Assembly (NCBI GenBank): GCA_015680905.1
Contig: CM027384.1
Location: 64,735,001-64,799,000, forward strand
Source: Coptis chinensis
Taxonomy: Eukaryota > Streptophyta > Magnoliopsida > Ranunculales > Ranunculaceae
Length of the DNA stretch: 64,000 bases
Direction of reading: 5' to 3'
The notes under the pieces were generated by a model. That model was not told where the DNA came from and searched no databases. It saw only the letters and a program-made list of their open reading frames with translations. Both the position numbers and the translations under genes were made by a program. Positions 1,670 to 58,684 of the stretch are shown one piece after another (within the stretch, counting starts at the first letter, position 1; each line of letters begins with the position of its first letter).

Positions 1670-2433
1670 AATATCCACAACCAAACTCACTTCTATATTT
1701 TCTAGAAGAACAAGTGTTCCTCCATTAAAACTATTACAAGCTTTTTAATAAAAACCAAAACTAACTTCTCATTTTCACTAAGGAACTAAAATAATACCAT
1801 GTGAGGAAAATAAGTCAAGGGAGTAAATGGAGTGTCCCCCACCCTTGTCTAATTTCTTCTCCATTTTAGAGAAATCTCATTTCCTCCCACGTGAATTATC
1901 AAACCACATTGATTCATTTTTATCTACCACATTAAAACAAAGTGACACCTTGCCTTTTTCTCACTATTAACACCTAATCTAATTTATTACATGCAAGGTA
2001 TCAACTTTGCACCAATAATTTGTTATCTTTGTCTTGATATGCTCCATGATTGATGACTCATCCAATCTTGTGGCCCCGCATAGTGGGTCCATGTGCAGTC
2101 CAGTGGCAGTCCGGTATTTTGGGCAGTTTTACAACTTCCCACCTATGCGTAGAGTTCATCGCCTACGATTATGCGAGCAGCTCTCTTGTCACATTCGGAG
2201 TCCTAGTTCGAGAGGTAGGAGCTTTGGAAGTTTGATGCTTCTACGTGGATTTGGAAGAATTCATATATACGCCGTTCCTCGTGCTTTATTGCAGGTTTAA
2301 CCAATATTTCCATGTTTACTGCAAATACCTGCAAAAGTATGAAAACATATTTATTTCATGATTATTAAACACATAATGAACCAAATTTATATGTCTCAAT
2401 CGGTTTTCATAATACACTTTTGGGTGCTTATCA
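982..2433 (-). mobile_element. 5' LTR of Ty3/gypsy element C
   Basis: The segment starts TGATATAAGC and ends GCTTATCA, the same TGATA...TATCA ends as the LTRs of elements A and B. The primer-site remnant lies on its left, so the element points to the minus strand and its body lies to the left of the window. The right end abuts the protease frame of element A, which stops immediately because the LTR begins with TGA on the minus strand. The partner LTR and target duplication cannot be checked here. Confidence 0.7.
1636..1666. repeat. (AG)n microsatellite inside LTR C
   Basis: About fifteen uninterrupted AG units. It is a simple sequence repeat and likely length-variable. Confidence 0.95.
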
Positions 2434-3417
2434 ATGGCCAAAAGACAAGGACATCGAACCATTTCGGCAGTTTATAAGCGCGTTGGCAGTTGCCAAAAAT
2501 GGACGCCCTAAGATGATCGGAACAGAGTCATTAACAACTTCTATATCGAAGTTAACAAAATCAGTAGGATAGTAGAAATCCTGGACCTTAACTAGCACGT
2601 TTTCAACCACACCCTTAGGATACTTAATAGACCTATCCGCTAATTGCAATGTCATTTGAGTAGGTTGCATCTCCTGTAGACCTATTTGTTTGTATAAATA
2701 ATACGGGAGTAAGTTGACACTTGGCCCCAGATCTAATAAAGTGGTGGTCGTATGAGAATCTCCTAAGGTGCATTGTACAATAGGACGACCAGGGTCCTTG
2801 TACTTCACAATTCTATTATGTTCTGTTAAAGTTGGAAATTGTTCAGTTAGAAAGGCGTCTTTAGGAATATTTGTCCTACGCCTACTAGTGCACAACTCCT
2901 TAAGAAACTTAGCGTGGTGAGGTAATTTTTTAATTGCTTCGAGAAAGCGTAGGTTAATCGTTAGATTCTTGAATACTTCCCTAATCTCGTCAAAGTTTGT
3001 ATCTCTGTTTAACATAGCTAATTTATGGGGAAACGGTGGTATCTCTCTATGCTTAGTGTATGATTCAACTGGATGTCTAACCTTTGCTTTTTGTTTCTTA
3101 GGTTGTGTTTTAACTGGTACCTCTACAGGGGTAGGCTCTTCAGTTTCCATTTCGGTATTTAGTTCAATCTCCTGTGTAGGGACTACTTGTGGGGTAACTA
3201 TAAGCATAGTTACATTGTTGTCAACCACTCTACCAGAACGGAGAGTGGTGATGGCATTTTGCTCACCTACGTTTACATTTTTCGTACTAGTATTACCGTT
3301 CACCTCAAAGGCTGTGTTTGGTGTTTTAGGATTAGGTATAAACTTGTCCCGAAACACACCTTTGGGTTGTACTTTCTCTTGAGCTAGCTGCTGTAAGGAA
3401 AGTTGGATGGCTTGCAA
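2434..3417 (-). pseudogene. Ty3/gypsy element A: gag C-terminus and retropepsin, truncated by element C
   Basis: The minus-strand frame encodes the end of gag and an aspartic protease that would mature the element's polyprotein. The retropepsin region reads DLGPSVNLLPYYLY and later IILGRPFLATANALI, the two hallmark blocks (catalytic D-[ST]-G-like, then hydrophobic-G). The usual alanine or serine after DLG is proline here, and the family normally has DLGASVNLLP, so activity is doubtful. The frame ends at a TGA that is the first codon of the inserted LTR C. Upstream the same frame is interrupted by a TAA near 3428. The linker region is rich in proline, glutamate and valine. Reverse transcriptase and integrase of this element must lie beyond element C, off the window. 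Confidence 0.85.
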
Positions 3418-3419
3418 AA

Positions 3420-4109
3420 TCTGTTGTTAAGATTGCATAAAGGTATCGAAACGATCCGGTTGTGGAAGAGTGTTAGCTATAGGTTGTGTGACAGGAACTA
3501 TGTCACGTTGATTATTTATGGGTGGGTTATGATAGTTATTATTATTAACTGGAACAATACCTCGATTTGTATTATAATTATTATTGTTATAATTATTATA
3601 ATTACCCTGACCTTGTGCTTGACCTTATCGTGGTTACGCTTGGTTGTTATAATTATTATAATTACCCTGACCTTGTCCTTGTCGTGGTGGAGGTTGGTTA
3701 TAATTGTTTGCTTGCCTAACATTTTGATTATTAAATCCTGGAGTTGTTACTTGTTGATTATTTCTCCAACTGAAGTTGGGGTGTTGTCTCCAAGGGGCGT
3801 TAGGAATAAGATAACTATTAATTGAGCAAACGTTATCTTGTTGTAATGTTTGTTGTTCCTAAACGAAAGGACAATAGGAGTCGGGGTGCTATGGACTCAA
3901 ATAGAAATTACATGGGTTGGAGTTGACATTCATGATGGGGATAGGTTTTTGTTGGACAAAAATAATCTCTACCTTTTTAGTTAGAGATTCGATTAAATTT
4001 TTAAGTTCTGGATCGGGTTTCATCTCAAACATACCGGTGGCTTTAGCTGTTGTAGAAGAACTAGCGGAACGGGATATATCATCACTACCCCAATTATTAT
4101 TTTGCTTAG
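3420..4109 (-). pseudogene. Ty3/gypsy element A: gag C-terminal half (Asn-rich linker)
   Basis: Minus-strand translation gives an asparagine-, tyrosine- and proline-rich linker typical of the region after the gag core in Athila-like elements. Two near-identical subrepeats of about 60 bases (about 3587-3640 and 3648-3701) encode repeated Tyr-Asn-Asn units. At its upstream edge the reading frame is cut exactly by the LTR of element B at 4110 and resumes in frame at 15,955 (QTK on one side, QNNNWG on the other). Several stops interrupt it, so it is not functional. Confidence 0.75.
4105..4109. repeat. Target-site duplication CTTAG (left copy) of element B
   Basis: CTTAG immediately precedes the LTR at 4110 and is repeated at 15,955-15,959 directly after the other LTR. 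Five bases is the expected duplication size for a Ty3/gypsy integrase. Confidence 0.95.
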
Positions 4110-12903: not shown

Positions 12904-13545
12904 TCAAAGAACGTCTTCTAAAAACGACCATGCATCATCCACAGTCTTATCACAGAAATCTCCAGTACTCATGGTCTCAATCATAGCCTTAGAGCTAAAA
13001 TCAAGACCCTCATAGAGAATCTGTATAAGTCTACCCTTCTCTAGGCCATGGTTAGGACACTGCAAGAGCAGGTCCTTGAACCTCTCCATACACTTCCATA
13101 ATGACTCTCCATCAGCTTGGCAAAAAGATGATAAATTTTTTCTAAAAGCAGTTGCCTTATGATTAGGGAAAAAATTCTTTAAGAACACAATGCATAATCT
13201 TTCCCATGTAGTTATGGAATTAGATGGAAGGGTGTGAAACCAACTTTTCGCTTTCTCCTTAAGGGAAAAAGGGAATAACTTCAGCTTTATAGCCTCATCG
13301 CTAAACTGTTGAAGTTTCACAGTCCCACAAATATCTTCAAACTCCCTTACATGAAGATATGGATCTTCCTCGTCTGTACCCCTAAACTTAGGAAGTAGCC
13401 CAAGTAGATTGGGCTTTAACTCGAAATTATTAGCATTGGTCGGTGGAGGAACGATGCAAGACGGTCGAGTTGTCCTAGTAGGATATATGAATTCCTTAAT
13501 GGACCTAGGTACTTGGACAACAATGTCATTATTATTGTCAGTCAT
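12904..13545 (-). pseudogene. Element B gag core (retrotransposon gag domain)
   Basis: The capsid-type structural protein that would assemble the element's intracellular particle. The start is the ATG at 13,545 (MTDNNNDIV), about 710 bases after the primer site. The gag core is clear: FRGTDEEDPYLHVREFEDIC, then IKLKLFPFSLKEKAKSWF, then WERLCIVFLKNFFP, then ESLWKCMERFKDLLLQCPNH. These blocks define the plant retrotransposon gag family (PF03732-type). The frame stops after FLEDVL, where a frameshift separates it from the rest of gag. Element A carries a homologous but diverged gag at 15,955-16,700. Confidence 0.9.
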
Positions 13546-14254
13546 GTCAGCAAAAATTGGTGTATTACCGACAAAGGTTATAGGTATCTCTAACTCGGCG
13601 AGATTTCTAATCCTTTTATGAAGTGTCCGTTCAATTTCTGAATCAAATGAAAGCTAACTCGATTATTGGATCGAGTCTCAATCATAAACCACTTCTAAAA
13701 CCTAAGACTCTAATAAATGATGCAAACGATGCTCACACAAACAATACCAAACAAATATTTCAACCCAGATTGAATTTTAAATATTGTTTAATATATTTGC
13801 TCCTAAACCCAAATAACACGATTCCCAGTTCTTGTGCAAAAGCACCGTCACTCGATCCACGTGTCAAAAGAGCTTTCCTAATGAGCGGGCTAAAACCTGT
13901 CCTAATGCAATATGCCTAAGGCTGGTCAAGGTGATTTAACCTTCCTAGATGCAAGAAACAATGAAAACAAGCAAAACACACGAAACAAACAAAATTCAAC
14001 CCACAAAGGAAAGAGACGTACCTCCGGCGTGAGCCTTCGAGGGCTACTTGCGACGCCGGGTGACGACAAGCAAGAAACTTCACAAAGTCCACAACAAAAT
14101 CACGACTATCAACCTTGTAAGAAGAAATCTTTGCTTAACTATCTGCAAAAATAACTAAAATTAAACACGTAAACTACGAATTAATATAACTACGACTAAA
14201 CTTAAACTACGAATCACGATAAATAAGACTTTAAAACTCAATTGTGCCACTACA
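13546..14254 (-). mobile_element. Untranslated leader of element B
   Basis: About 710 bases between the primer-binding site and the gag start. No coding frame is supported. Confidence 0.8.
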
Positions 14255-14273
14255 ATCCCCGGCAGCGGCGCCA
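14255..14273 (-). other. Primer-binding site of element B (tRNA-Asp)
   Basis: The plus strand reads ATCCCCGGCAGCGGCGCCA. It matches the 3' end of plant tRNA-Asp(GUC) at 18 of 19 positions, the difference being G for A in GGCAACGG. It sits six bases inside the 5' LTR (14,280). Minus-strand DNA synthesis would start here. Confidence 0.93.
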
Positions 14274-14279
14274 AAAACT

Positions 14280-15954
14280 TGATAGAAAATTAGTCAGTCT
14301 AAATTAATAGACTAATCTAACCCTAGTTATACCGCAAGCGCACAGCTATCGTTGAATATAGTTGCGGCGAACGGGTCGATCCCACAGGGATTGCTACTCA
14401 GGACAATTGAATACTAAAATATTACCTAACCTAATTCGAACAATATTTGTTTTATGGAAGTTTGAGTTACTATTAACTAAAATTAACTAATTACTACGAA
14501 AGCAATAAATTAAATGGATTAACTATTAACGAAGAAAACACTAAGGCATTCGAATCCACCCTAGACCGTTGTAGATTATCCTAGTTTAATTAATTTTAAA
14601 GTTCTCTTTTAATACGAGTAGCATGAGGGAAAGGTAACCCTTGCTTGCTTTCGAAGATGTGAACGTGTAATTCTTAAACAATTCTAACAAATCATTATTA
14701 ATTGAATTTCAAAGAACGATATAAACCCCTAGCAAAATTGTCTTTTTACAAGATCTGACTTCTCCACGGGTTTAAAATAAACTTTAGAACCGAAGCTTCG
14801 ATATCAACGAAACTTAATCCAACAATTGACTAGTCTAGACATGGATTAAACATGCAGGATATAATCAATGATAGAATTTCTACTAATAAATCGGATAATT
14901 CAATTAATTATTTATCAGTAAACTTAAGTCGAGAACAATAACCCAATTAAACTTAGAAAACCTCATAAAATCTAGGGCTTCATCTAAGCCCTAGCTTTGA
15001 ATTTAGCTAGACATGATAAGTAGAACATAAAAACAGAAAAGAATAAACCCATTGATAAATCCAATAGAGTCTGGCGGGTGGTTTATCTTCTTACGCTCCT
15101 TCGTTCCAAATTTCAAAAGTCTCGGCCTCTGCCTTCAATCAGCCGCCACTGTTCTTTGTTTTCCAAAGCTCTCGACACGTATTTACGTGTTGTCCCCCTC
15201 TCTCTGTTTCTCTCTTGTTTATATAATGGATTGGTTATGATGGTGTTTGACTTGAATGGGATTCAAGTCGGTGTGAGAGGTTCGGGTTTGGATCAGTTTT
15301 AGTCGAAGTCGGTCTTTGTTTTGTGAGAAAGATAGATGGTAGTGATCCCGTGGCAGCTAGGTACTAATGTGGGATTTAATGATTGGTTATGGGCTGATTT
15401 TGGAAGGTCGTATTCGATTAAGAGATGATGTCTTTGGTTCAAATTGGAAATCCCATTTTCTGTTCGTGAGAATCAGAGTTCGAGAAGGAAACTAGAGCTT
15501 TGATCGGGGTGGTCCGTAAAGTGATTTGGTGAGTGGAAGCGTGTTCAATTTGGTCGGCCGAAATTTGAGGGATCGGTTTCTCTGTTGTGCGAATTCAGTT
15601 TGGAGAATGAAACCAAAGTTTCTGTTCGTGAGCGAAGGGTGGAGAAACATAAGGTCTGATTCGGTGCTCTCATGTGGACATGAACCGGTATGGCCATTAG
15701 TTGTTAACCGGTTCGGTCCAACCTTTTAACTCTCTATAATTGGGCTTTGGTCACTTGGGCTTAGTCAAGCTAGGAAATAGAGGCCTCTCTATAGCACAAT
15801 CAGTCAACTTCCAAAGACTTTTCAACCTTGTTCACGATTCATACCATTTCTGCAAAAACCAAGGAAACACGATAATCAATACGAAATTATATAAAATAAC
15901 TGGACTAACTCATATAAAATTGGGCGTGAATATGTAATAATTCTGCACTTATCA
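14280..15954 (-). repeat. 5' LTR of element B
   Basis: About 1675 bases with TGATA...TATCA ends, directly repeated at 4110-5792. It is followed by the CTTAG target duplication at 15,955-15,959. It would carry the element's promoter. Confidence 0.95.
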
Positions 15955-26466: not shown

Positions 26467-27313
26467 AATTTTTGATCACAAACCTGTAGCAGGAGCGGGT
26501 GGGGTTTCATTTATATGCTTAAATGAGAATATGTACAACATTTTTGAGTTTATGTGAGCCAAGTCACTTCTGGTTGTACTCAAAGAACTTATTTTTGTCT
26601 GGTAATATGTAGAAGGTAGGTTTGGATATCTCATTGTAATAGAATTTAGAAGCATTATTGTTTCCGTGAGTTTAGAAGAGGTGTGCTGGTTTACAGTTTA
26701 CTACTTTAGTGGTAGTTGCGGTTATGTTACTTCTGTAAACATCAAATGTCCATGCTTTGGTTTTGGAAGGCTGGGATATTCTGTATTTACTAGATGTCTA
26801 GATGTGATCCATAATCCATGTAGGCCTAGTACTTCGATTCGCTCAGATTTTACTGTCGTCCCTTACTTGATCCTACTGTCAGTCCCTCTGTCTTGTCATC
26901 CACTCTCGTACTATGTTCCAGAATTCTACAGTGATTCAGATTTGCAACTTGCAGAGAAGATAACTGTGTCCACAGAGGGCAACTTGGTCATTGCCTCCTA
27001 TGTACAGTCTAGAATTTAGACATATTAATTGGTTAGATTTCTCTGCATGGTTGTAAAGGTAGGACCGTAGGAACAGAACTTTTGCTGGTTGACTATAGTA
27101 ACATTCCCTTCCCTATTTTTTTGTATCTTTTTGTTGGTTGATTTTTAATGCACCACGACTTGGTCAACAACACTACCAAGATTCTCTTCTCTATATTAGA
27201 AGGAAAATAGCTCTCTCACAGTCTCACTAAAAGTTTTGGACAGTGATAAAGAGAGTATAAAGTAAGGGGAAACCGGAAGAGTATTAAAATTGGGTCCAGT
27301 ATTGGGCGCCACA
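26467..27313. other. 3' flank of SOSEKI gene, non-coding
   Basis: It contains the presumed 3' UTR. The frame at 26,666-27,019 has no recognisable motifs and I do not consider it a gene. Confidence 0.65.
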
Positions 27314-28030
27314 CAAATTGGATTGGGCAGTCTCCAGCCCAAGCCCAAATACGCAAAACCAAAAAAAAAGCCCAAATACACCGCCCACCTAATAATGAAA
27401 CCGGAAAAACTTTTTCCACCGGTATCATCTCTATCGTCATCGCGAGTCTGAACCCAAAAAAAAAAATTGAGTTTTTTCTCATCTATCTAAAATTTAGTGA
27501 AGTATTATCTCATCTCTCACCAACACGCCATTGTTAAGCTATTCTCATTGCGAGTTTTTCAATTGTTCTAAAATTCAGGTTGGTTCTTCTTAATTTTCAA
27601 GCTTGATTTATAGTGTGTTATGTTAATTATGTATTTGATCATTGTGAGTTTGTATAATTAATTATGGTTTTTTGGTGATTCGCATAATTAGTCATGCATT
27701 TAGTCTTCAAGTTCTCAAATTTTGTTTCTTTTTTTCCATCATTTTCTTAATTTCTTAATTTGGGATGATTGGGTGCGTAGATTTTGTGAACAAAAGATCT
27801 TACTAGAGGTTGTTTTCACATTCCTTATTCCGTATTGTTTTCTTATACCCTCTGGGAATGGGAATGATGGAAGACATGATAAATAGACCTTCAAATTCAG
27901 GAGTTGACAGAGCGCACATATGGCATTAGCCTAGAATTTCATCATTGTTTAGCCCTTACATGTTTGTTCATTTGGTGTTTGGTCCAATAGTGCTCTGGTC
28001 TCTAATTTAACAATATTCATCGTCAACAAT

Positions 28031-28073
28031 CCTAAGTATACTAAAGGTGTTCCAATACCTTTAGTGTACTTAG
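28031..28073. repeat. 18-bp-arm inverted repeat
   Basis: Arms CCTAAGTATACTAAAGGT and ACCTTTAGTGTACTTAGG pair with one mismatch across a short loop. Confidence 0.85.
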
Positions 28074-28176
28074 GTGGAAGAGGCAGCCTCAATACCTGCC
28101 ACGTTAAATAACAAAAATAACCACCTAAACTGCTGTTGTCTGAAAACTTACAACTGAATCAAAACTCACCTACTAC

Positions 28177-28234
28177 GAGCTGTAAAAAGGGTCTCACCTA
28201 CTATGACAAATAGGTGAGACCTTTTTTACAGCTC
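28177..28234. repeat. 24-bp-arm inverted repeat
   Basis: The left arm begins GAGCTGTAAAAAGGGTCTCA and the right arm ends with its complement, separated by a 10-base loop. At most one mismatch lies in the A/T run. Confidence 0.88.
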
Positions 28235-28784
28235 ATTTCCAAGTACAGTCCATACTTATGATTAACAACCCTATAATGAAAGTAACACCATAACCTTAAA
28301 GCGTGTAGTCATGACTTATGAAGCACAGGCCATAAACTAGGATGGTTGAGTGTTTTTTCTAACTCCAAATGGCAGCAAAGTTAGGATTTTCCCTGAGTGC
28401 AAAGGCTGTAGAATGATTCTTTCGTAAGGTTGCTTTCATTTCAAATGACCCACCACAAAAGAAAAACAATTCATGGTCACCTAGATAAGGTTGGTTCAGT
28501 GGCATATAAGTTGCAAATATAGAGGGAAACAGTTTAAATTTTGTTTAGCCAATGTAGTTTCACTGTGATTAAATTGCACATGTTTGTGTGTACCTGGGTA
28601 AGTCCCTCACACACCAGTTTATTGACTTATGTGCTTTTACTAAATAACATTTAGGTTTCATCTGATTTTAGTTTTAGAATGTCAAGAATGTAGTAATTTT
28701 GTTGGTTTGTTTTAGAATCTTCAGTTATTTTGATTTTTTTTTAATACCCGGTGCATTGTTTTAAGACTAGGTTCATTTGTATTA

Positions 28785-28885
28785 AACATAGCAATTTATC
28801 TGGTTCGATTCCATTATCTATTGGAAATTGTTTGAATTTACTGATGTTTGATTTTTATTTTAATGATCTTAGTAGTGTACCAATT
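28785..28885 (+). pseudogene. Leucine-rich-repeat gene fragment
   Basis: Plus-strand translation gives SNLSGSIPLSIGNCLNLLMF followed by DFYFNDLSS. This is the plant extracellular LRR pattern (LxGxIPxSIGNCxNLxxLDxxxNxLS) of receptor-like kinases and proteins. Only about one and a half repeats are present, without start or splice context. It looks like a captured piece of a host gene just upstream of the PMD gene. Confidence 0.65.
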
Positions 28886-29000
28886 ATGACATTTGTTTCG
28901 TTGCGAAGTAATCCTTGTTGGAATTTTTTGAAGTTTTGGAAGTTTAGATGTCTTGGAACTGTAATAGTTACCAATACTTGTTTTATTTTTCTTTTTAGCA

Positions 29001-31345
29001 ATGGGTCTTCGATCAAAGAATGTGAAAAATGTAGCGAAAACTACATTCAAGGGTGTGAAGAGATTGTTTGGCGGCGGTTCCTCTAGTGGTGACGCAGTTG
29101 GAAGAAAGAGACAAAGGGCAGAGGGCTTAACGGCATCAACACGTAGAGGGGACCACAAAGAAAAAGAGGTTCCTGAAGTTGATTCATCGAGTGAAGATAG
29201 TGTAGATAGTGATCACAATGTAGGTTTAGATATAAATATGGACAAAGGAAAGAGTATAGTGGAAGAGGAGAGTAAGGAGAGTGAGGAAGGTGAGGAGGAG
29301 GGTGATGAGGAGGGTGAGGAGGGGGATGAGGAGGATGAGCAGGATGATGATGTGGAAGAATATGTGGTAGAAGTCGTACCACCAGTGGAAGAAGCACCTC
29401 TGGTATTGGATTTTTTAAGAAAATCCAATGATGATTTGGAGTTTAAAAGAGGTGAGTATGGGGTTGGCCCGTATGAGTTAGAGTTGTTTTATGACTATAC
29501 GGTGCATGTCGCTCGCGATGTTTGGGAGAGAAGGATAATATTTTGTTTTTCTGTAGCACTTTGATTTTCTTTTACAAAATCTTTTGTTTCTGCTCATATA
29601 TATATCTAATGCGTGCTTGGTTGTTTCAAGAGGATCGCGGAGCGTTGAAGTGTGTTTCATACTTAGCGAAGTTCTGCCAATGGTATTTCAAGAATGAATT
29701 TGAAAGGTCTCCGAGATTTTTCCAACAGTTGAGAAGGACTGGGTTGTTTGATCTCGTGGTAAGTTATCACGAGCATATAGATCCTCCATTGGTCTTTGCG
29801 TTTGTGGAGAGATGGCATCCGGAGACCAACACTTTCCATATGCTATTTGGGGAGATGACTGTGACTTTGGACAATGTTGTGCAAATCTGTGGAGTCACAG
29901 TTAGAGGAAGAGCGGTGCAAGGGGACAGTGAGTTGAACTTATAAGAATCGATAAATCTCTTACATCGTTCTCTGGGTCTCCCTATTGATTTGATTAAGGC
30001 GGAGATGGAAACTAGCAAGTTCACTTCAAAAGTAAGGCTGGAATTCCTCCGAAAGTATTTTGCTAACAAGGTTCATGATAGCCCCATATGTGATGCTGTT
30101 GGGAAGGTGGTGGAGAAGGCATCGAGTTTCCAGGAAGTCCAACGGGCTGTCAGAGCTTTTATCCTATTTTTCTTTGAATGTGCCAATTTTACTGACAAGT
30201 CTGGGATTGGAGTGCTTATATATTATCTGAGGCCGTTGTTGAAATTCAGTGAGATAGGAGAGTATGTATGGGGTGCAGCAGTTTTGGCGTTTTTGTATAG
30301 AGGTCTTGGGGCTGCTACATGTGTGAAGGTGAAAGGGGTTACAGGCTATATGACTCTTCTACAGGTAAAACTTTAGTATTTTAGAGATTAGTTTTTTTAA
30401 TATTAATTTTATTACTCTATCAATATGTTAACTATTTGTGTATATCTAGGCGTGGATCTATGAGTATTTTCCGGTACTCAGAGCAGTCCTAAACATGGAC
30501 TATAGCTTGTCTCAGCCGTGTGTTAATAGACACACAGTAGTCGCTTTACACTATTACGATACAATGTATGCATTGCAATATTATCGAGCGATACTTGATG
30601 ATATGAATTTTTTCAATATAAGTATTTAAGTTTGTTTATATATATTTTCTTTAGTAATTGATCATTGGAGTTGTTAATGACACATTTGATTTTGTTTCAG
30701 GTTGATTGGCATCCCTACAATAATGTCAGAGATAGAAGCCCAATCGATGACATTGCATTTTTTGAGGGATTGCTATGTTTTTTCAACATTGTCGAGCTTT
30801 ACGCTGTCGCAACGGTGGTGCGTCAGTTGGGTCATGTGCAGCTTATACCCGTAGATCCTCCAACACTAAATTTGAGAACAATAACTGTGGCAGGACGCGG
30901 GTATGAGGTGAACTGGACCAATATTGGGCCACTTTACTGGGAGTCATGGCAGAATCACGTGACCAACCCTGCCATAGAGGGCCTATCTCGTCTTATCCAT
31001 GGGAATGTCATCTAAACTACATGACTTGGTATGCGAGGAATTCTCATATTCGATTGAGCGTCTTCCTATTCATCCCTCCCTGGAGACACTTTCTAACTGT
31101 TCACCGATTGTGAATATTGTGATTTTTAATTGAGTTTATCTAATAGTGATTTTTTGCATTCGATTGATAACTTATCTTGATTTCCCTTTTTTCGACAGAA
31201 CGACGTCATCGATGAAACTAGTCACATGCTAGAGAGAGGTTTGCAATTGGCTGGGAATAATATTCCAGAAGAAGCAAGGTCCTCCTTCGAACAGGCGTAC
31301 AACTTGACTAGGTGCAAGTACAGTGGTGGGCGTTATAATTCATGA
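29001..31345 (+). pseudogene. Plant mobile domain (PMD) gene of the MULE unit, inactivated
   Basis: PMD proteins (MAIN/MAIL1 family in plants) are known as host silencing factors and as passengers of transposons. Exon 1 (29,001 to about 29,519) encodes a basic N-terminus and a long Glu/Asp-rich tract, then YELELFYDYTVHVARD. Exon 2 (about 29,633-30,364) carries LKCVSYLAKFCQWYF, the diagnostic FVERWHPETNTFHMLFGEMT and TVRGRAVQGD, then EYVWGAAVLAFLYRGLG. Exon 3 starts at 30,450 (AWIYEYFPVLRA). Exon 4 starts at 30,701 (VDWHPYNNVRD). A last exon, 31,199-31,345, ends in a TGA. Defects: an in-frame TAA at 29,942-29,944, and a one-base shift near 31,012 before NYMTWYARN. The exon 3 donor is unclear. 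It converges on the transposase gene. Confidence 0.85.
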
Positions 31346-31592
31346 TTTGTTTCTTGTAAGGAATGGATGGATGTTTGATTTTGAATGATGTTTGATTTTG
31401 GAATTAATGACGTTTGGAATTTGTTGTTATTTGATTTTGAATGAATGATGGATGTTTGGAATTTGTTGTTATTTGATTTTGAATGAATGATGGATGTTTG
31501 CGTTTGTTGTTAAGTGGAATTTGATGTTTGTGTGGTTGTATGGATATGAAAGTGTTGTAAAAACGAAATGAACTTTTAAAAAAAAATTGTCA
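31346..31592. repeat. Short tandem repeats after the PMD gene
   Basis: Degenerate repeats of GATGTTTGATTTTGAATGA and TTTGGAATTTGTTGTTATTT fill about 31,370-31,520 (best period about 54 bases). The region is non-coding and presumably the 3' UTR or terminator region. Confidence 0.65.
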
Positions 31593-31750
31593 AAACGATC
31601 TAACCACATCGTTTGGTATAAAGACCAAATGACCGCTTCAGATCATTTGGCCTTTATACCAAACGACCGCTTCAGATTGTTTGGCTTAAAGCTCAAACGA
31701 CCCAGCCACATCGTTTGGTATAAAGGTCAAACGACTTCACCATGTCGTTT
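31593..31750. repeat. Dyad array 1: five 22-nt inverted modules on a 34-nt register
   Basis: Modules start at 31,593, 31,627, 31,661, 31,695 and 31,729, exactly 34 bases apart. Each is an inverted dyad of the form AAACGAY, eight bases, then RTCGTTT. The 12-base linkers are related to GGTATAAAGACC or its complement. The array lies between the 3' ends of the two convergent MULE genes. Confidence 0.93.
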
Positions 31751-32050
31751 GTGATAAAATTAAGTAAAATCAAATCACATCAAATCAAATCAAATTACAC
31801 TTATTCCAAATTACATCAAAATATCATATTGATAACATACGAACATTATTTACAAATCACTCGATTGTCGTCCGAATCAATTTAGTCAATCACTCGATTT
31901 CCAAATCAAATCAAATAAAAGCCTTAACATTATTTCCAAATAAAATAAAAATCAAATCAAATTACACTTGTTCCAAATTACACCAAAATAACATGTCAAA
32001 ATGAATTTACAAATTACATCAAAATATCATATCGACAACATACAAACAAC
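31751..32050. other. AT-rich intergenic spacer between convergent MULE genes
   Basis: It holds repeated AAATCAAATCAAAT and TCCAAATTACA motifs and two similar blocks (about 31,790-31,830 and 31,960-32,045). No gene is seen. Confidence 0.65.
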
Positions 32051-34754
32051 TTAGTCGATAACATGTACTGTTGGGTCTTCAACGGGCTCGTTTTCCCGTA
32101 TTAGATTAGGAATGTTCAATGCCATAAATTGCAATTGCCTTGCTGTCAATGCCAAATTCCAACTTTCAGCAATATCATATCGAGCTCTAAGCCATTGGCG
32201 CATTACTGGAGAAACCGGACAATCTTCAACAAGTTTAATATTGACAAAATGATTTCCACTACCATGTGCGCTACCCAATACTTTTTTCACTCTCTCAGGA
32301 TTTGCTTGGGTTCTCAGCAGCATGATAAGGAAGCACTGACAAGCTCCTAAATGCAGGAGGACAACATTAAATCTTGAAGCAAATAAGTATCCAGCAAAGG
32401 GCATGCTCATCCACTTATTTAAGGGTGCGTAACCTTATTCATGTAGGATTTCCTTCATTGCATAAACAACCTCACTTTGACTGTACAAAGTACAATAAAG
32501 GGGGAGGTTGTCAGTAAGCTCTTGGTACAAGTCCTTTCTCATCTTTGGCCATTCTTCTTGACTTCTTCCTAATGCAATACAGAAAGCTCTATAACTGTAG
32601 TTGCCATCGCCAACAGGGTCATCGAATCTAACAATGTATTTATGTATTTCTTCAAGAATATCTAACCCGTAATCCTTAGGACCCCTCGTCTTTCCAAAGT
32701 CTAACCCATTATTCACATTTTGTGGTGTGGCTGTTTTTGGTGTTTTTGGAGAAGGCTTATTTCTTGGTGTGATTGTTTTGGGTATTTTTGGAGAAGCCTT
32801 ATTTGTTGGTGTGGTGTAGGTGTTTTGGGTTGATATTTTTGGAGAAAACTTCTTTCTTGGTGTGGTGTGGGTGTTTTAGGTGGGCGTAGTGTTTGGTTGT
32901 GACCAGACCCACTCCTCATGGTCACATTGAGAATGTTCAAAATGAGATGGATCTCGCTTTGAAAAGTTCTCATCTCTAGTTAGAAGCTTTCTGCTGCAGC
33001 TACCTTTTGGCCGACCTTTGGTTTTTGCTTCCTCACGAGGCGGTACTAGCCATGTACTTTATGGTACGACAATCTCCATAAGTTTCCTAATTATAACCCT
33101 CTGCTCTTATTCAGAAACCATTGCAAACCTTTTCATGAACAAGTCCATCGAAGGTGTAACATCGGGACCAACACCCACTGACACATTGGGAGAAACAGAC
33201 ACTGTTTTCCAAAAGCGGTCGATAGCAGTCAAAGGGATGGACCGCTCTTGCTCTTCAAACTCAATTAATTCATGAGCTCGTGCGCAAATAATACCAATAC
33301 CTGATCTCTCCATCTTTAACACGCTTTACGCGGGTATCTATTTCTTCAAATAGCAAGTCCAAATACTTACGTGAGACAAGGCCTCTGAGTTCACGAAACA
33401 AAGGAATCTGGTGGTGGTGCTGAGTTACAATCATACTCCTCTCGAAGGTAGCTCTAATCTCGGACATCTGGATCTCTAGAATCAGGTGGATTATGCTAAA
33501 CATTCTAAAAAAACCATGACAATTTGCATTTCCTAGTACACGTTTCACCTGAGCATGAGACCCTTCAATTCTATTGGTCGTTGTACTCCTAAAATGAATG
33601 TGTTGGTCAGTCCAACAACATACGAATCGATCCCTGTAAGGAAACCAAGTCTCTTGCAAATAACTAACAAAATTGGAGTACTCAACCCTGTAATATTTTT
33701 CCAAAGCATCCCATCTACACTAGAAAATAACCTCTGTCTTCGATTTGACTACAATGTTCCACGAGAACTGGGCCTTCTCTACAAGTTCTGTAGTTGGAAA
33801 AATATTGTAACATTTTGAAAGGACACACATAGCGATATGCCATCTACATAGATGCTTGTGTGCGTTAGGGAAAACTTTGTCAACGGCACTTATCAGGGCC
33901 AAGTCCCTGTCAGACATGATCATGAATGGGCTTATATCACCAAGCAAGCCACTAAAATGATGCAGGGCCCACTCATAGTTGACTGTTGTTTCAGACTGAA
34001 GCAGCACCTGACACACGGTGAAAGACTTCCACGTTGAACTTACCCTAACAAACTGTACGAAAGACCACCGATACCTATTAGTTTTGTAGGTAGCGTCTAA
34101 CATGAAAATTGTTGGAAAAGTCTGAGCTAACTTAACATCTTCTGGATGGGCCCATAACAACCCCGTTATCTCCTCGGTATTCTCATCATGTCTTAACTCC
34201 TCAAAATAATGTTCTTTTGCTAACAACTCACGCAATCTCTGCAATTGTATGAGACAATTCATATCCAATTTCCTCACCTTTTGCCTTGTAGTGTAGACTT
34301 GGGATATACTAGATATGTTTTTATGATACCTATTCTTGATGGAATCCAAAATATTTTTAGGCTTTATTCCATACTTACTCATCTCTGACAAGTACTCGAA
34401 CTCTGGGATGGTCAAACGAGTAGCAAATGCATGTCCTTCAAGGGTCTTCGCCAATACATGGTTGTGAATACCATTTCTAACTTCTATTTTCCAACTATCG
34501 ACAGTGCCGCATTGGAAAACACCTTTTAACTTAAATGGACATCCCGATTTCTTGGTTCCCGACCTTCTCTTATTAGCCCTCCCTTCGCCTTCCTTCTTGT
34601 GTGACCGATACACACCCGAGCACTCCCAAGCCAAATTCAATCTTGTTACTTGGTTTCCCTTTTCACACTCCGACTTTTCAATGACCACAACAACATTAAC
34701 TTGTTTTCCTCTAGCGGTTGCCCAACCGATTGCCTCGCTATGCGTATGAAAGAC
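32051..34754 (-). pseudogene. MULE transposase fused to OTU-like protease domain, main exon
   Basis: The element's mobilisation enzyme. Read on the minus strand it opens with a FAR1-like zinc-binding region (FHTHSEAIGW, ECSGVYRSHKK, KKSGCPFKL, GIHNH). The MULE catalytic domain follows (IFMLDATYKTN, MSDRDLALISAV, HLCRWHI), then TTTNRIEGSHAQVK and CARAHELIEF. After a GRPKGS motif comes a proline-rich repeat linker (32,973-32,713), then an OTU-type cysteine protease region (RFDDPVGDGNYSYRAFCIAL, WPKMRKDLYQEL, FASRFNVVLLHL). Defects: TAG at 33,720-33,722, a one-base shift near 33,300, TAA near 33,110, and TAA at about 32,435. The OTU catalytic Cys is Tyr. The acceptor at 34,754 follows an intron with donor at 34,851. 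Confidence 0.88.
32713..32900 (-). repeat. Tandem repeats encoding a Pro/Lys/Gln linker
   Basis: Three to four units of about 54 bases encode variations of SPKTPTPHQ and LLQKY between the transposase and OTU parts. They contract and expand in steps that keep or nearly keep frame. Confidence 0.75.
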
Positions 34755-34851
34755 CTAAACACATAAAAAACAACTATTACGAATACACTAATAAAATTAC
34801 ATTTAGAAAATTTAAAAAAAAAAAATGAAATCAATGCCTACTCCATCATAC

Positions 34852-34935
34852 CTCTTCCGTAGTAAAAATTTCTGTTGCATCACTTAAAATCGGTTGACAA
34901 TCCACGTCATTCGAGTTTGCAGAGGATCAGTTCTC
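34852..34935 (-). pseudogene. Upstream exon of the MULE transposase gene
   Basis: The minus strand encodes NSNDVDCQPILSDATEIFTTE and ends at a GT donor (complement of 34,850-34,851). It splices in frame to the acceptor at 34,754. Its own upstream acceptor is not resolved, because a TGA lies just before the conserved segment. Confidence 0.6.
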
Positions 34936-35056
34936 GGATAGCAGCAAAGAATCCTACAAATAGAAGAATAAAACAGGAGTCTCAAACAATTTGTATTTAG
35001 GTAATGAAGGATTTCAAAGTCACAAAAAAAACTAAACTTCTAACTAAATTTAGTCC

Positions 35057-35214
35057 AAACGACCCAGCCATGTAGTTCTATAGAGGGTCCAAATGATCCA
35101 ACCATGTAGTTCCATAGTGTCACCAAACGACCCAGCCATGTCATTCCATAGTGTCCCCAAACGACCCAGCCATGTCGTTCCATAGTGTCCCCAAACGACC
35201 CAGCCATGTCGTTT
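35057..35214. repeat. Dyad array 2: five 22-nt modules on a 34-nt register
   Basis: Modules start at 35,057, 35,091, 35,125, 35,159 and 35,193, again exactly 34 bases apart. The left arm is AAACGAC (AAATGAT once) and the loop is CCAGCCAT. The right arm is GTCGTTT or a decayed form (GTAGTTC, GTCATTC). Linkers are CATAGTGTCCCC. The array lies upstream of, or in an intron of, the transposase gene. Confidence 0.93.
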
Positions 35215-35332
35215 GGGCTCGGGTTTTGCATTCATTCAAGTGTTTTGCATTCATTCATTCAATCAATCAATCAAGTGTTTTGTATTCATTCTAATCAAGT
35301 GTTACTTCATTATTTAGGTTTGCACTTTGTCG

Positions 35333-35521
35333 TCAACGATTTCTCGGCATCTCATTTGCTCGACTAGTCGTATCTTCTAATTCTTCAAATTCTTCACCTT
35401 CACCTTCAACATTTTGTGCCACTTCTTCACTTTCAACATTTCTTCTATTTTCTCCTTCTCTAATTTGTTGTTGCACCTCAAACATTACCTCAAATGCTTC
35501 TTCTTCATCTTCATGTTTCAT
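35333..35521 (-). pseudogene. Possible first exon of the MULE transposase gene (acidic N-terminus)
   Basis: The minus-strand frame starts at an ATG at 35,521 (MKHEDEEEAFEVMFEV) and is strongly acidic, like the N-termini of many plant MULE proteins. It lies upstream of the transposase exons on the same strand. No clear donor was found. It may instead be a chance frame. Confidence 0.4.
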
Positions 35522-35641
35522 TTAGAGAAACTTGAGTATTTTATGTAAGGAGTAAGGATTTTGATGAAAAAAGGAGTAAGGAGGAGTAAATGAGAAACTT
35601 GAGTATTTTATATAGAGATATTTGAAATTTTGATATATTTT

Positions 35642-36360
35642 GAATAATTAAGTGAAATATGTTTGTAAACCCTAAACCCCAAACTAGTTTATTATTCATA
35701 ATTGAAAAAAAAAATGGAAAATAACAAGTTTAGATATAAAACAAATTATTATTTTAGATTTGGATAATTGAGTGAAATATGTTTGAAATTAAAATTTTTT
35801 TTATGTCGGTTCGAAATTTGTAAATCCTGAACCCTAAACCCAAACCCCAAACTAGTTTATGATTCAAAATTTGAAAAAGAAAATAAAAAAATAACAAGTT
35901 TAGATATAGAACAAATTATTATTTCGAATAATTAAGTGAAATATGTTGGTACGAAATTTATAAACCCTAAACCCTAAATCATAAACCCCAAACCCCCAAA
36001 CTAGTTTATGATTCACAATTTGAAAAATAAAATAAAAAATAACAAGTTTAGATATAAAACAAATTATTATTTTGAATAATTAAGTGAAATATGTTGGTAC
36101 GAAATTTGTAAACCTTAAACCCTAAACCCTAAACCCCAACCCCCAAACTAGTTTATGATTCACAATTTTAAAAATAAAATAAAATAAATAAAAAGTTTAG
36201 ATATAAAACAAATTATTATTTCGAATAATTAAGTGAAATATGTTGGTATGAAATTTCTGAACCCTGAACCCCCAAACCCCAAACTAGTTTATGATCCACA
36301 ATTGAAAAAAAATAAAGATAAATAACAAGTTTAGATATAAAACAAATTATTATTTTAGAT
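35642..36360. repeat. Five-copy tandem repeat with telomere-type CCCTAAA motifs
   Basis: Units start at about 35,642, 35,762, 35,926, 36,074 and 36,223 (lengths 120-164). Each reads GAATAATTAAGTGAAATATG, then a telomere-like AAACCCTAAACCC stretch, then CCCCAAACTAGTTTATGATT, then AACAAGTTTAGATATA. Length differences come largely from the number of CCCTAAA-like hexamers or heptamers and from one extra insert in unit 2. Confidence 0.9.
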
Positions 36361-36747
36361 TTTGGCATGTTTGATTACATATTTTAACTTGGTTATATAG
36401 ATACTATGTTATAACAGATAAAGAGTGTAGAGTGCATGTAATTGTGTTGGTGTAACTAATTGTGTTGTTCCTAACCCAATTTTTTAAATCGGATTTCAAT
36501 TTTTCTAATTCAATTGGGATGTGTTGATAATTCATCATTACTAATTCAATTTTGCAGATAATTGTTTAAATAAATTATTGTACACTTATGATCGATTAAT
36601 TATTTGTATTATAAGAAAAGTGTTCGGTGTTTATGTATAAGAAAAGTGTAATTGGTGTTTATGTAATCAATTTTTATTGGTTAATCAGGCTAATCATTGG
36701 TTAATCAGGAATTTCCTTGGTTGAGAACTTCTCAATTATTTTAGTTC
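36361..36747. other. Non-coding spacer in the MULE right arm
   Basis: AT-rich, with no supported gene or repeat apart from a short repeated GTTTATGTAATCAATT-like motif. Confidence 0.6.
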
Positions 36748-37034
36748 AAATGACTTCACCATATCACCCCATAGAAGCCCTAAACGACCTAGCCATACCG
36801 CTTCCATGTGATACCAAACGGCATGGCATAGCCATTTCAATGCACACACAAATGGTGTGGTCAAGCCGTTTGAGTGTACACTCAAACGGTACACGTTTGA
36901 GTGTATACTCAAACGATTTGGCCATATCATTTGAGTGTATGCGAAAACGACGTGGCCATATCGTTTGAGTGTATACACAAACGACATAGTGGGATCGTTT
37001 GAGTGCACACCCAAACGGCCCGAGGCGTTCGTTT
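36748..37034. repeat. Dyad array 3: nine modules on a 34-nt register
   Basis: Modules start at 36,748, 36,782, 36,816, 36,850, 36,884, 36,911, 36,945, 36,979 and 37,013. All steps are 34 except one of 27, where the fifth dyad has lost seven bases. Arms vary together (AAACGGC with GCCATTT, AAACGAC with ATCGTTT). Linkers are themselves palindromic, GAGTGTACACTC type. It ends about 90 bases before the proposed right terminal repeat. Confidence 0.93.
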
Positions 37035-37138
37035 TGGCGAAACCGGTTGAATTGGTTGCTGGGCCTGGGCTTTGATGGCAAACTTGTAATATGGAAAACT
37101 TGTAAAAAAAAATTTGAGGGGTTGCCCAATCCAATTTG

Positions 37139-39533
37139 ATTAGTGCCTGATTGAATCAATGCAACTTTGAATTTTGTATATCTTTATTTTCAACTTTTTA
37201 AACAGTTTTGGCATACAAAATAACACAAAGACAGTTGTTGCTATCTGCTTACCATGGAGTTAATATTAGGGCACCCGTACAAGTCAATTTCCAATTTCAT
37301 CCAACACTTTCACTACAGTTGAGGGTATTGGGGTATTTTCACTACAGTTGACCACGAAGATAATGGTCAAGATGTGTTGACTTGGACGGGGTGTGAAAAT
37401 GGGGAGGGAGGGTATGTGTCTAACTAACCCTTACTAGCCATTTGGCCCGGCCTATGGCCAGACTTGCTAGATAGATAGCTAATGACTCAAAAGCCTAAAG
37501 TCCACTTGAATAAATAATATATGTATATTGATAGCTAATGATTCATTGCATACTTTGTTTGAAGGGTTTATATTTTTCTATTTTTTTTAAGAGATTGCAA
37601 GCTCTCAAACCTTGATCTAGTAAGTGTAATGCGTACATTTTTTCTGGCTGATGCATCAGCAGTAGCGAAAGACAAATCGATGTCAATTTCAAATCTAGAT
37701 GAATATCATGATATAGGTGACAATGAATGTTTGTTTGTACACCATATTGCACCATTTGCAATATTGAAGTATTGAGACAAATAATAATTATCACAACAAA
37801 AATGTAATTTCTTTAGATTCCCAAATCAATTTGATCATTCAGGTTACTTGCTTTGGAGATTGACATTTGCTCCATCAATTCCTTGTACTTAGGACTACTT
37901 CAGGAAACTGTTATACATGACAGCTGAATTCTATAGTCTTTCGAAGTAGATGCAACTTTAAGAGCATGTCCTTGAGGCAGTTATTTTCGAGACCGGGTTG
38001 GGCTAAGATAAGTCACATTTGCACCACACAAATGTTTGCCATCTGAATGTAATTGTAGTTGTGATATTATTCTCTAGTCACTTGGAAGGGTATGTTGTTG
38101 TGAATACCGTCTCATTTATCTGTGGGCGTGTCAGAAAATTAGAGTTAGAGGCCGTTTGGTTTTTTAGCCTCTAAATGCAATGTGCTTCTCATTTATCTGT
38201 GGGCGTGTCTGGAATTTAGAGTTAGGGACCAGTTTGGTTTTTTTAGCTTCTGAATGCTGAAATCTGAATGTGCCCTCTCCTACCTCCGAAAGCCTTTGAA
38301 TGCAAAGCTCTGAATGTTGTAAACATGTTTGTTTTGTTTATGTCAAACTGAACCTCTTAGTAAATGCCTGGTACAATGTATGATAACTAAAGAAGTTACA
38401 CAATCGAATGTAACTAAATGAAAGAAACAAAAACAAATAATAAACCTACAATGTAAAACTATTACAGTCTAAAAACAGAGATGAAGAAACAAAGTGCAAG
38501 GTTAAGATAAACAAAGTGCAAAGTTAAAAGAAAGGCATTGGAGCGTTAATAGCGTGAAAATGATATTACATTGGCGCAGTTGACCCAAATGAAAGAGATG
38601 TGACTTCAAAGTTCTGCAATTGGCAATGAAATCATATTCACCTAAGTGGCCTAAAATGAGGGTACAATCCGTTAAGCGCGTATACATTTTAAAGGGATTA
38701 CAGAAAGGTATAATACCTCAAGTGTAATCAATGTCTACCTCAATAACATAACTGCAAGCCAAACAAAAATATTAATCAAATTGGTATAAATCTTAACACA
38801 CATGATTATGCAATAAGAAATTAAGTTTATTACAGAGTCCAGGGAACAACATGGATTTATGAATTTCTTTTTTAGGAGGGGAAGGTATCAAAAGCTAAAA
38901 GGGAACAAAGTGATCGACATAGGTAGTTGGAGAATATTTCAATTCAACAGGAATGTATATGCAATATTAGTATAATGATAGCACTTTGTAACGCCCCAAA
39001 TCTCATGCAATTACATACCTATGATACATGACTTTTCTAGTAAATTTTCGACAAAGTCTCCTTTGTATATTCGACATTTCATAAATATAAATTTGTCATA
39101 ACCTGAAAATTTAATAAGAATACATCCAAACCAAATATAAAACCTCATACCTCAATTGTAAATTCAACTACTAAAAGATATACTGATTCGTAGAACCAGC
39201 TACTTAATCATCTCAACCAATGCCAGTTAAATCAAGTAACCAATCCTCGAATAAGAAGAAAACTATAAATATACAAACATCCCAAAAACCCTAATACACG
39301 ACTTATACAGTGCAACTAACATACATACATCTCCACATTACAGATACATTCAAATCTCACCGAAGCAAAAAAAAAAAAAAAAAAAAAAAAATCACAAATT
39401 ATAGATTGCGATGAGCACAAATTACACTTGATCTCACTCACTAACTCACAGGTTTACTATTAAGATTGTGCTAGCAGTATCTGTATAGATTACTCTATAA
39501 ATCCATTTCAAAGAGGAAGCAGATTTTCAGGTA
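37139..39533. other. Non-coding region with small duplications
   Basis: No gene is supported. Two diverged copies of a roughly 80-bp unit containing TTATCTGTGGGCGTGTC lie at about 38,113-38,190 and 38,191-38,270. A segment at 39,040-39,115 resembles the tail of element B (7963-8030). An A homopolymer of about 26 bases is at 39,366-39,391. Confidence 0.6.
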
Positions 39534-58344: not shown

Positions 58345-58684
58345 GACCAAGATGCCTTGCAAGAACATTGGGAGATATCATTAATGCTTATGAAAAACGT
58401 AAGCAAAAAAATGCTCATTAGTGTGGGACAAAACTTGATTATGGAAATTGCTCAAACCGAGTTATAGATTCATAATTAGCAACCACAAAGAACTTGTTTT
58501 TTTGTTATTTTTGAGACCAAGATGCCTTGCAAGAACATTGGGAGATATCATTAATGCTTATGAAAAACGTAAGCAAAAAAATGCTCATTAGTGTGGGACA
58601 AAACTTGATTATGGAAATTGCTCAAACCGAGTTATAGATTCATAATTAGCAACCACAAAGAACTTTTTTTTTTGTTATTTTTGA
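58345..58684. repeat. Near-identical 170-bp tandem duplication
   Basis: Two units, 58,345-58,514 and 58,515-58,684, each starting GACCAAGATGCC. I see one difference (G to T before the T run). It is a recent duplication or a possible assembly duplication. Confidence 0.93.

Follow-up and report, generated by a model that had tools for sequence, protein, structure and literature searches.

A 64,000-nucleotide stretch of the Coptis chinensis genome (contig CM027384.1, positions 64,735,001 to 64,799,000; hereafter the window) carries a Mutator-like element (MULE) with three arrays of short inverted dyads in its non-coding parts. An earlier inspection of the sequence (the original prediction) had placed these arrays at 31593-31750, 35057-35214 and 36748-37034, and all three were located there. 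The features of the element are as follows, in window coordinates (TIR: terminal inverted repeat; ORF: open reading frame; PMD: plant mobile domain).

27292..37160, no strand assigned: whole MULE, ~9.87 kb; its ends are where similarity to other copies stops
27292..27329, + strand: left TIR, imperfect, from comparison of copies
29001..31345, + strand: PMD gene, several exons; PF10536 in three exon ORFs
31593..31750, no strand assigned: array 1, five dyad modules in a 34-bp register, between the convergent genes
32051..34754, - strand: transposase gene, main coding part, split into several ORFs; PF10551, PF21056, PF08731
34867..34957, - strand: putative transposase exon 2, from splice signals and conservation
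35057..35214, no strand assigned: array 2, five dyad modules, in putative transposase intron 1 (34958-35300)
35301..35521, - strand: putative transposase exon 1, acidic N-terminus
35821..36355, no strand assigned: 148-bp tandem satellite with telomere-like AAACCCTA units, upstream of the transposase gene
36748..37034, no strand assigned: array 3, nine modules, two of them degenerate; right subterminal, ~125 bp inward of the right end
37123..37160, - strand: right TIR, imperfect, from comparison of copies

The Mutator-like nature of the unit, as predicted, was borne out by the PF10551 match (E 2.7e-20, 73 bits against a cut-off of 27.6), by the TIRs and by 9-bp target-site duplications in two other copies. 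The element was compared with ten other copies (bearing names between E2 and E17), giving 11 copies in total. These were picked for matches to both arrays 1 and 2, so the joint presence of these two arrays carries no weight. Imperfect TIRs of ~38 bp were recognized by eye in the window and in other copies, and the left-TIR pattern, with up to 3 mismatches allowed, gave 421 genome-wide matches against 0 for the reversed control. Judged by eye, the 9-bp target-site duplication is exact in two of the five copies with both ends placed (E14 and E2). In the other placed copies, E17 displayed an 8-bp AT-rich match and E8 was ambiguous; no clear duplication was found by eye flanking the window copy.

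The PMD gene (rightward) and the transposase gene (leftward, 35521-32051) are convergent. Among nine ORFs of the unit, a Pfam scan detected PMD, MULE and a few other domains. The E-values of PF10536 in the three PMD exon ORFs were 1.5e-16, 2.5e-12 and 0.0022 (the last below the Pfam cut-off), and an AFT (DNA-binding) match at the transposase N-terminus was marginal, with 22.1 bits for a cut-off of 21.6. Searching with the transposase exon protein recovered 7 relatives, some labelled FAR1-related in Vicia and Chenopodium, and a PDB search with one PMD exon gave no match. Array 2 had been described as lying either upstream of the transposase gene or in an intron. Splice signals and the acidic exon 1 point to the second possibility, with array 2 probably inside intron 1. 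Exon 1 is open in 7 of the 11 copies, and its indels are in-frame. Copy E9 is devoid of the PMD part.

The modules of array 1 start at 31593, 31627, 31661, 31695 and 31729, and those of array 2 at 35057, 35091, 35125, 35159 and 35193. In array 3, strong modules start at 36816, 36911, 36945, 36979 and 37013, weaker ones at 36782 and 36850, and degenerate ones at 36748 and 36884. The 19 modules initially counted thus comprise 15 strong, 2 weaker and 2 degenerate ones. The 34-base register, with its single 27-base step in the window, was recovered as proposed, and the step is accounted for by the shortened module at 36884. The arrays are real and far above chance: all 11 sites of the window that match the 14 arm bases with two mismatches or fewer fall within them, for a mean of 0.1 such sites in 30 first-order Markov shuffles of the window.

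Module number varies between copies. Array 1 has 7 modules in each of the ten other copies against 5 in the window copy, which is damaged, being two modules short here and interrupted by in-frame stops (that of the PMD gene at 29942-29944). Array 2 ranges from 5 to 8 modules and array 3 from 0 to about 18. Array 3 is subterminal in 10 of the 11 copies; in copy E8 (L029/L030), the equivalent of window 36663-37029 is gone and the adjoining parts on both sides are kept.

The module was originally defined as two seven-base arms separated by eight bases. It is indeed an inverted dyad, but the conserved core is AAACGA-N10-TCGTTT. The seventh arm pair is often non-complementary, 122 of 235 modules having C facing A (all tests on these 235 were run without the nested modules of copy E12, which belong to a miniature inverted-repeat transposable element (MITE), and without two chance sites of E16). 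With TGGCCA, a frequent centre, the module becomes a near-palindrome of 22 bp, and in many cases the linker forms another dyad centre (GAGTGTATACTC, GGACTTAGTCC). Because linkers are thus often palindromic too, the arrays can be described as alternating half-sites with spacers of 10 and 12.

This spacing is tightly kept. Across the 11 copies (E12 being considered up to base 14900), every exact inverted half-site pair lying 0-30 bp apart had a spacer of 10 (78/78), everted pairs had a spacer of 12 in 55 of 62 cases, and module steps were exactly 34 in 164 of 191. Steps of 27 and 41 bases recur in other copies, and off-register modules occur. In the whole genome (935.6 Mb), the AAACGA/TCGTTT pair with spacer 10 was found 4424 times against 465 for the reversed control, and with spacer 11 only 142 times against 214. 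The perfect 14-base dyad (seven-base arms) occurs 1362 times; its reversed control occurs twice.

Arm conservation between copies was measured on A/T-only columns, in order to lessen the effect of cytosine deamination. For array 1, 8 of the 11 copies were used (the window copy, with its 5 modules, and E15 and E8, with an off-register step, were excluded). Arms differed between copies by 0.024, for 0.115-0.118 in the other module columns, centre and linker (p 0.0016). For array 2, based on 9 of the 11 copies (E14 and E15, off register, were excluded), the differences were 0.031 in arms, 0.044 in centres and 0.169 in linkers (p 0.0068). Flanking A/T columns differed by 0.092-0.152. When the arm mask was slid over the non-CpG columns of array 1, none of the 33 positions gave an equal value. 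Moreover, the same arms are associated with unrelated linkers in five array types, namely arrays 1-3, the arrays of the MITE, and an array upstream of PMD in a sister MULE.

The distribution of the dyad was analyzed at 27 perfect-dyad loci, all sampled within the initial ~40 Mb of a single chromosome; six (L036-L041) were selected for different dyad centres and the remainder taken as listed. Loci were assigned by homology outside the modules, which were masked. Nineteen could be attributed: 8 to the MULE family (the weakest, L049, with 71% identity), 3 to the sister MULE, two of which are its references, and 8 to the MITE. Five others (L046, L047, L048, L052 and L060) share 82-99% identity in non-module stretches and have MITE-like linkers; by sequence, they form a further repeat family of their own. 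For the last three, all matches were short or indirect: those of L056 and L057 to loci with arrays were short, and L051 matches only L049. In L046, L047, L048, L051, L056, L057 and L060, the unmasked sequence amounted to 256-462 of 600 bases. Although the arrays are widespread in the genome, the predicted association with MULEs is therefore retained for the 19 loci that are MULE-related or MITE, five loci belong to another repeat and three are undecided. No intact MULE free of arrays was encountered, with no fair search aimed at such relatives; all 11 copies have arrays 1 and 2, but they were chosen that way. At L042 (3.3 kb), one of the top PF10551 loci among the matches listed, the dyad was not found.

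The MITE is ~0.8 kb long (about 0.85 kb), with MULE-like ends and arrays inward of both of them, and its end has 779 matches genome-wide. Compared with the MULE right end (E12 being set aside), it scored above all 500 shuffles in 9 of the 10 copies tested; with the right end of the window copy, the score was reached by 2 of 500 shuffles.

The sister MULE, found in contiguous loci L041, L063 and L064, is related to the window element and has its genes in the same order. Four decayed modules lie in the transposase intron corresponding to that of array 2, three modules are found upstream of PMD, between the left TIR and PMD, and at most one is near the equivalent of array 3 (the right end of the sister was not located). 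A deletion corresponding to window 30797-31862, seen at the junction of two alignments, has removed the end of PMD and the place of array 1. Therefore, the sister copy is uninformative on array 1. Its transposase gene also contains a ~1-kb insertion with tandem repeats built on a palindrome-like CACTGTTCACGTGAATAGTG (L063 1024-1273).

Identity between the sister and window elements is 66-84% in transposase high-scoring segment pairs (HSPs) and 40-75% in PMD HSPs. Synonymous divergence (dS) is 0.69-0.77 for PMD and 0.14-0.17 for the transposase (seven comparisons, one partner). Since dS differs, the two halves differ in history, which suggests that they may have been exchanged between elements. 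Raw identity had suggested that PMD evolves more rapidly than the transposase, a trait of VANC, and this argument was dropped, as dS differs as well. Between the two lineages, the ratio of nonsynonymous to synonymous divergence (dN/dS) of PMD is 0.43-0.47 over 474-497 codons, indicating past purifying selection on a gene useful to its carriers.

The explanation we consider most likely, giving it about an even chance of being right, is that the arrays are docking platforms for an element-encoded dimeric DNA-binding protein with a VANC-like or TnpA-like role. It is favored because the site is dimer-sized, spacing-locked and conserved, has so far been encountered in a group of repeats, and occupies intronic, intergenic and terminal regions of a MULE. 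The element would encode a sequence-specific protein, each dimer of which would contact a pair of inverted AAACGA half-sites with 10 bp between them, and successive dimers would sit 34 bp apart along the array. Once bound, the protein would shield the non-coding parts (intergenic region, transposase intron 1 and right end) from silencing, and the right-end sites might also aid recognition of the element by the transposase. Candidate binders are the transposase, with its AFT/FAR1-type N-terminus, and the PMD protein. The existence of the MITE and the subterminal position of one array indicate that these sites may have a part in transposition too.

Binding-site arrays carried by transposable elements are a known kind of feature. 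The statement in the original prediction that no described element has such a pattern was too strong, considering the motif arrays of VANDAL elements and the subterminal repeats of Muta1, Ac/Ds and En/Spm. A 34-bp array of inverted half-sites in a MULE was not found described in the open-licence literature, with searches only partly aimed at it. As far as could be found, the dimer register, the link to PMD and the sharing between MULE, sister and MITE are new.

The closest likeness is with VANDAL21 and VANDAL6. In both, a second protein is encoded besides the transposase (PMC5735166, PMC10398659), and short-motif tandem arrays of variable unit number lie in intron, intergenic and terminal non-coding DNA (PMC5735166). 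VANC21 is reported to occupy such arrays in these regions of VANDAL21, with loss of methylation following, and VANC-target arrays gain and lose units (PMC5735166). The element described here displays the same trait, with intron, intergenic and terminal arrays of changing unit number, but has a PMD gene in place of VANC. The VANC domains DUF1985 and DUF287 were not found in the Pfam scan of the nine ORFs, which small or spliced exons could escape. Neither the VANC21 motif YAGTATTAY nor the VANC6 motifs AGTTGTCC/AGTTGTAC were encountered as array unit, the unit being AAACGA-N10-TCGTTT.

In En/Spm, the element-encoded TnpA likewise recognizes repeated motifs and is reported to activate Spm with demethylation; this element belongs to the CACTA superfamily, however, and its motifs are described as subterminal (PMC2613891, PMC10398659). 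Both Spm TnpA and MuDR MURA are reported to go with hypomethylation (PMC10398659). Muta1 and Muta5, two Aedes MULEs, have nine-copy subterminal tandem repeats of variable number that are kept in non-autonomous derivatives and, for Muta1, may serve transposition (PMC5225508). By contrast, their repeats are of 12 or 15 bp and lie within long TIRs at both ends, and the available part of that report does not mention internal arrays (PMC5225508). Subterminal repeats at both ends, as in Muta1-type foldback elements, were not seen in the MULE family, which has them at the right end only; the MITE has both.

PMD proteins are documented in silencing. MAIN and MAIL1 act in transposon silencing in Arabidopsis, and an anti-silencing role of MULE-captured PMD has been put forward as a speculation (PMC5418596). 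PMD is known within MULE elements, but as PMD-transposase fusions in grasses and Amborella, whereas it is a separate convergent gene here; arrays are not mentioned in the accessible part of that report (PMC5418596). More tentatively, and with some doubt, we propose that the PMD protein itself may be the anti-silencing factor, an independent counterpart of VANC whose dimers would polymerize on AAACGA half-sites in the 34-bp register. If so, chromatin could be under the control of a single PMD protein through a network of sites across the genome, as the AAACGA code is common to MULEs of autonomous type, a recombinant sister lineage and MITEs numbering in the hundreds. The speculation on PMD anti-silencing becomes directly testable with a MULE that carries PMD and has conserved arrays positioned like VANC targets. 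A rigid dimer code of this sort would be new as a layout of binding arrays borne by elements, and possibly a route to targeted demethylation.

Several observations weigh against docking of a protective dimer. The half-site pair pooled over spacers 0-30 occurs 6064 times against 20854 for the reversed control and is thus not enriched; since only spacer 10 is in excess, the distinctive feature is the spacing rather than the word. Arm CpG columns vary by about 0.17-0.22, as much as elsewhere, which is expected of methylated, decaying copies. Few columns underlie arm conservation, the centres of array 2 are almost as conserved as its arms, and 2 of 33 slid masks performed equally well on this array. 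Kinship with MULEs was not demonstrated for 8 of the 27 sampled loci. No array was found at the left end of the MULE family, either in the copies or at two additional left-end loci (L034, L035), and copy E8 does without array 3. The MITE, mostly array and ends, carries the sites, which end recognition fits at least as well. As to the VANC model, YAGTATTAY has one orientation (PMC5735166), whereas the dyad is inverted and in a 34-bp register, and the motif divergence between families that is typical of VANC targets was not seen, as the core is the same in the sister MULE and in the MITE. Finally, the present sequence data do not tell transposase and PMD apart as binder, nor anti-silencing and transposition as role.

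The strongest alternative, possible but clearly less probable, is that the arrays are nothing but subterminal repeats bound by the transposase for synapsis and cutting, in the style of Ac/Ds, En/Spm and Muta1, with the internal arrays displaced from the ends. The subterminal position of array 3 in nearly all copies is consistent with this, as are the MITE, with arrays inward of both ends and an end like the MULE right end, and the sister array between left TIR and PMD. However, two of the three arrays are internal, the intron position of array 2 is common to the sister, and the bare left end speaks against this alternative as well.

Ac/Ds belongs to the hAT superfamily, which has a hAT transposase and an 8-bp target-site duplication; the present element has a MULE transposase, and a 9-bp duplication in E14 and E2, and is not a hAT member. 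Ac transposase binds cooperatively to subterminal AAACGG hexamers, one base off AAACGA, which are clustered and kept in many non-autonomous elements (PMC3260210). Their closeness to the core supports a role in end recognition, but Ac sites are subterminal (PMC3260210), and the resemblance is likely a coincidence of a short word.

It is unlikely that the arrays are functionless satellites spread by duplication, with arms alike by common descent. Module number does change through tandem duplication and loss, and the 27- and 41-base steps and off-register modules would fit such a process. Nevertheless, the arms are conserved while the linkers of the same modules drift, and they are identical across arrays with unrelated linkers. 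Spacer 10 is also 31 times commoner than spacer 11; drift would explain this only if the copies were young, and the linkers have diverged.

Slightly less probable still is that the arrays act as RNA, long hairpins of the palindromic arrays feeding or blocking small-RNA silencing. Predicted RNA folds were stronger than those of shuffles (z of -9.8, -4.1 and -8.6 for arrays 1, 2 and 3), array 1 sits between convergent genes, and a slight excess of double-sided changes was seen at two arm pairs (6 against 4.4 expected, and 2 against 0.6). Strong folding, however, follows from any palindromic tandem array. Over all seven arm pairs, double-sided changes numbered 19 in 1645 cells, for 22.9 expected under independence, and at the seventh pair C mostly faces A. 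C-to-T and G-to-A changes were balanced (55 and 50), whereas a one-strand hairpin would tolerate one class, and a hairpin needs no exact 10-bp spacing. Selection for hairpin RNA, assessed by pair covariation and strand asymmetry, was thus rejected for want of clear support. Of the two roles originally proposed, the protein-binding platform is the likeliest given arm conservation and the spacing lock, and hairpin RNA lost ground. Finally, a host transcription-factor site co-opted as promoter or enhancer, which the sister array upstream of PMD would fit, is very improbable, array 1 being at the 3' ends of both genes and none of the 27 sampled loci having been demonstrated to be a unique host region.

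Some additional rearrangements were noted. The 148-bp satellite and its AAACCCTA units are preserved in other copies, and also in the sister element with a period of 152 bp. In copy E12 (L025/L026), oriented bases 13005-15835 correspond to an insertion in the MULE right end, with the dyad-rich MITE inside it, making three nested elements. This 2.8-kb insertion was considered as a nested second autonomous MULE and rejected, given the MITE inside it and the ends of the insertion, which we take to be hAT-like. In copy E14 (L027), the left portion of the MULE (window 27917-29329) is present a second time, in inverted orientation, at oriented bases 2311-3777. Elsewhere in the window, 58345-58684 is a 170-bp tandem duplication whose two copies are 99% alike.

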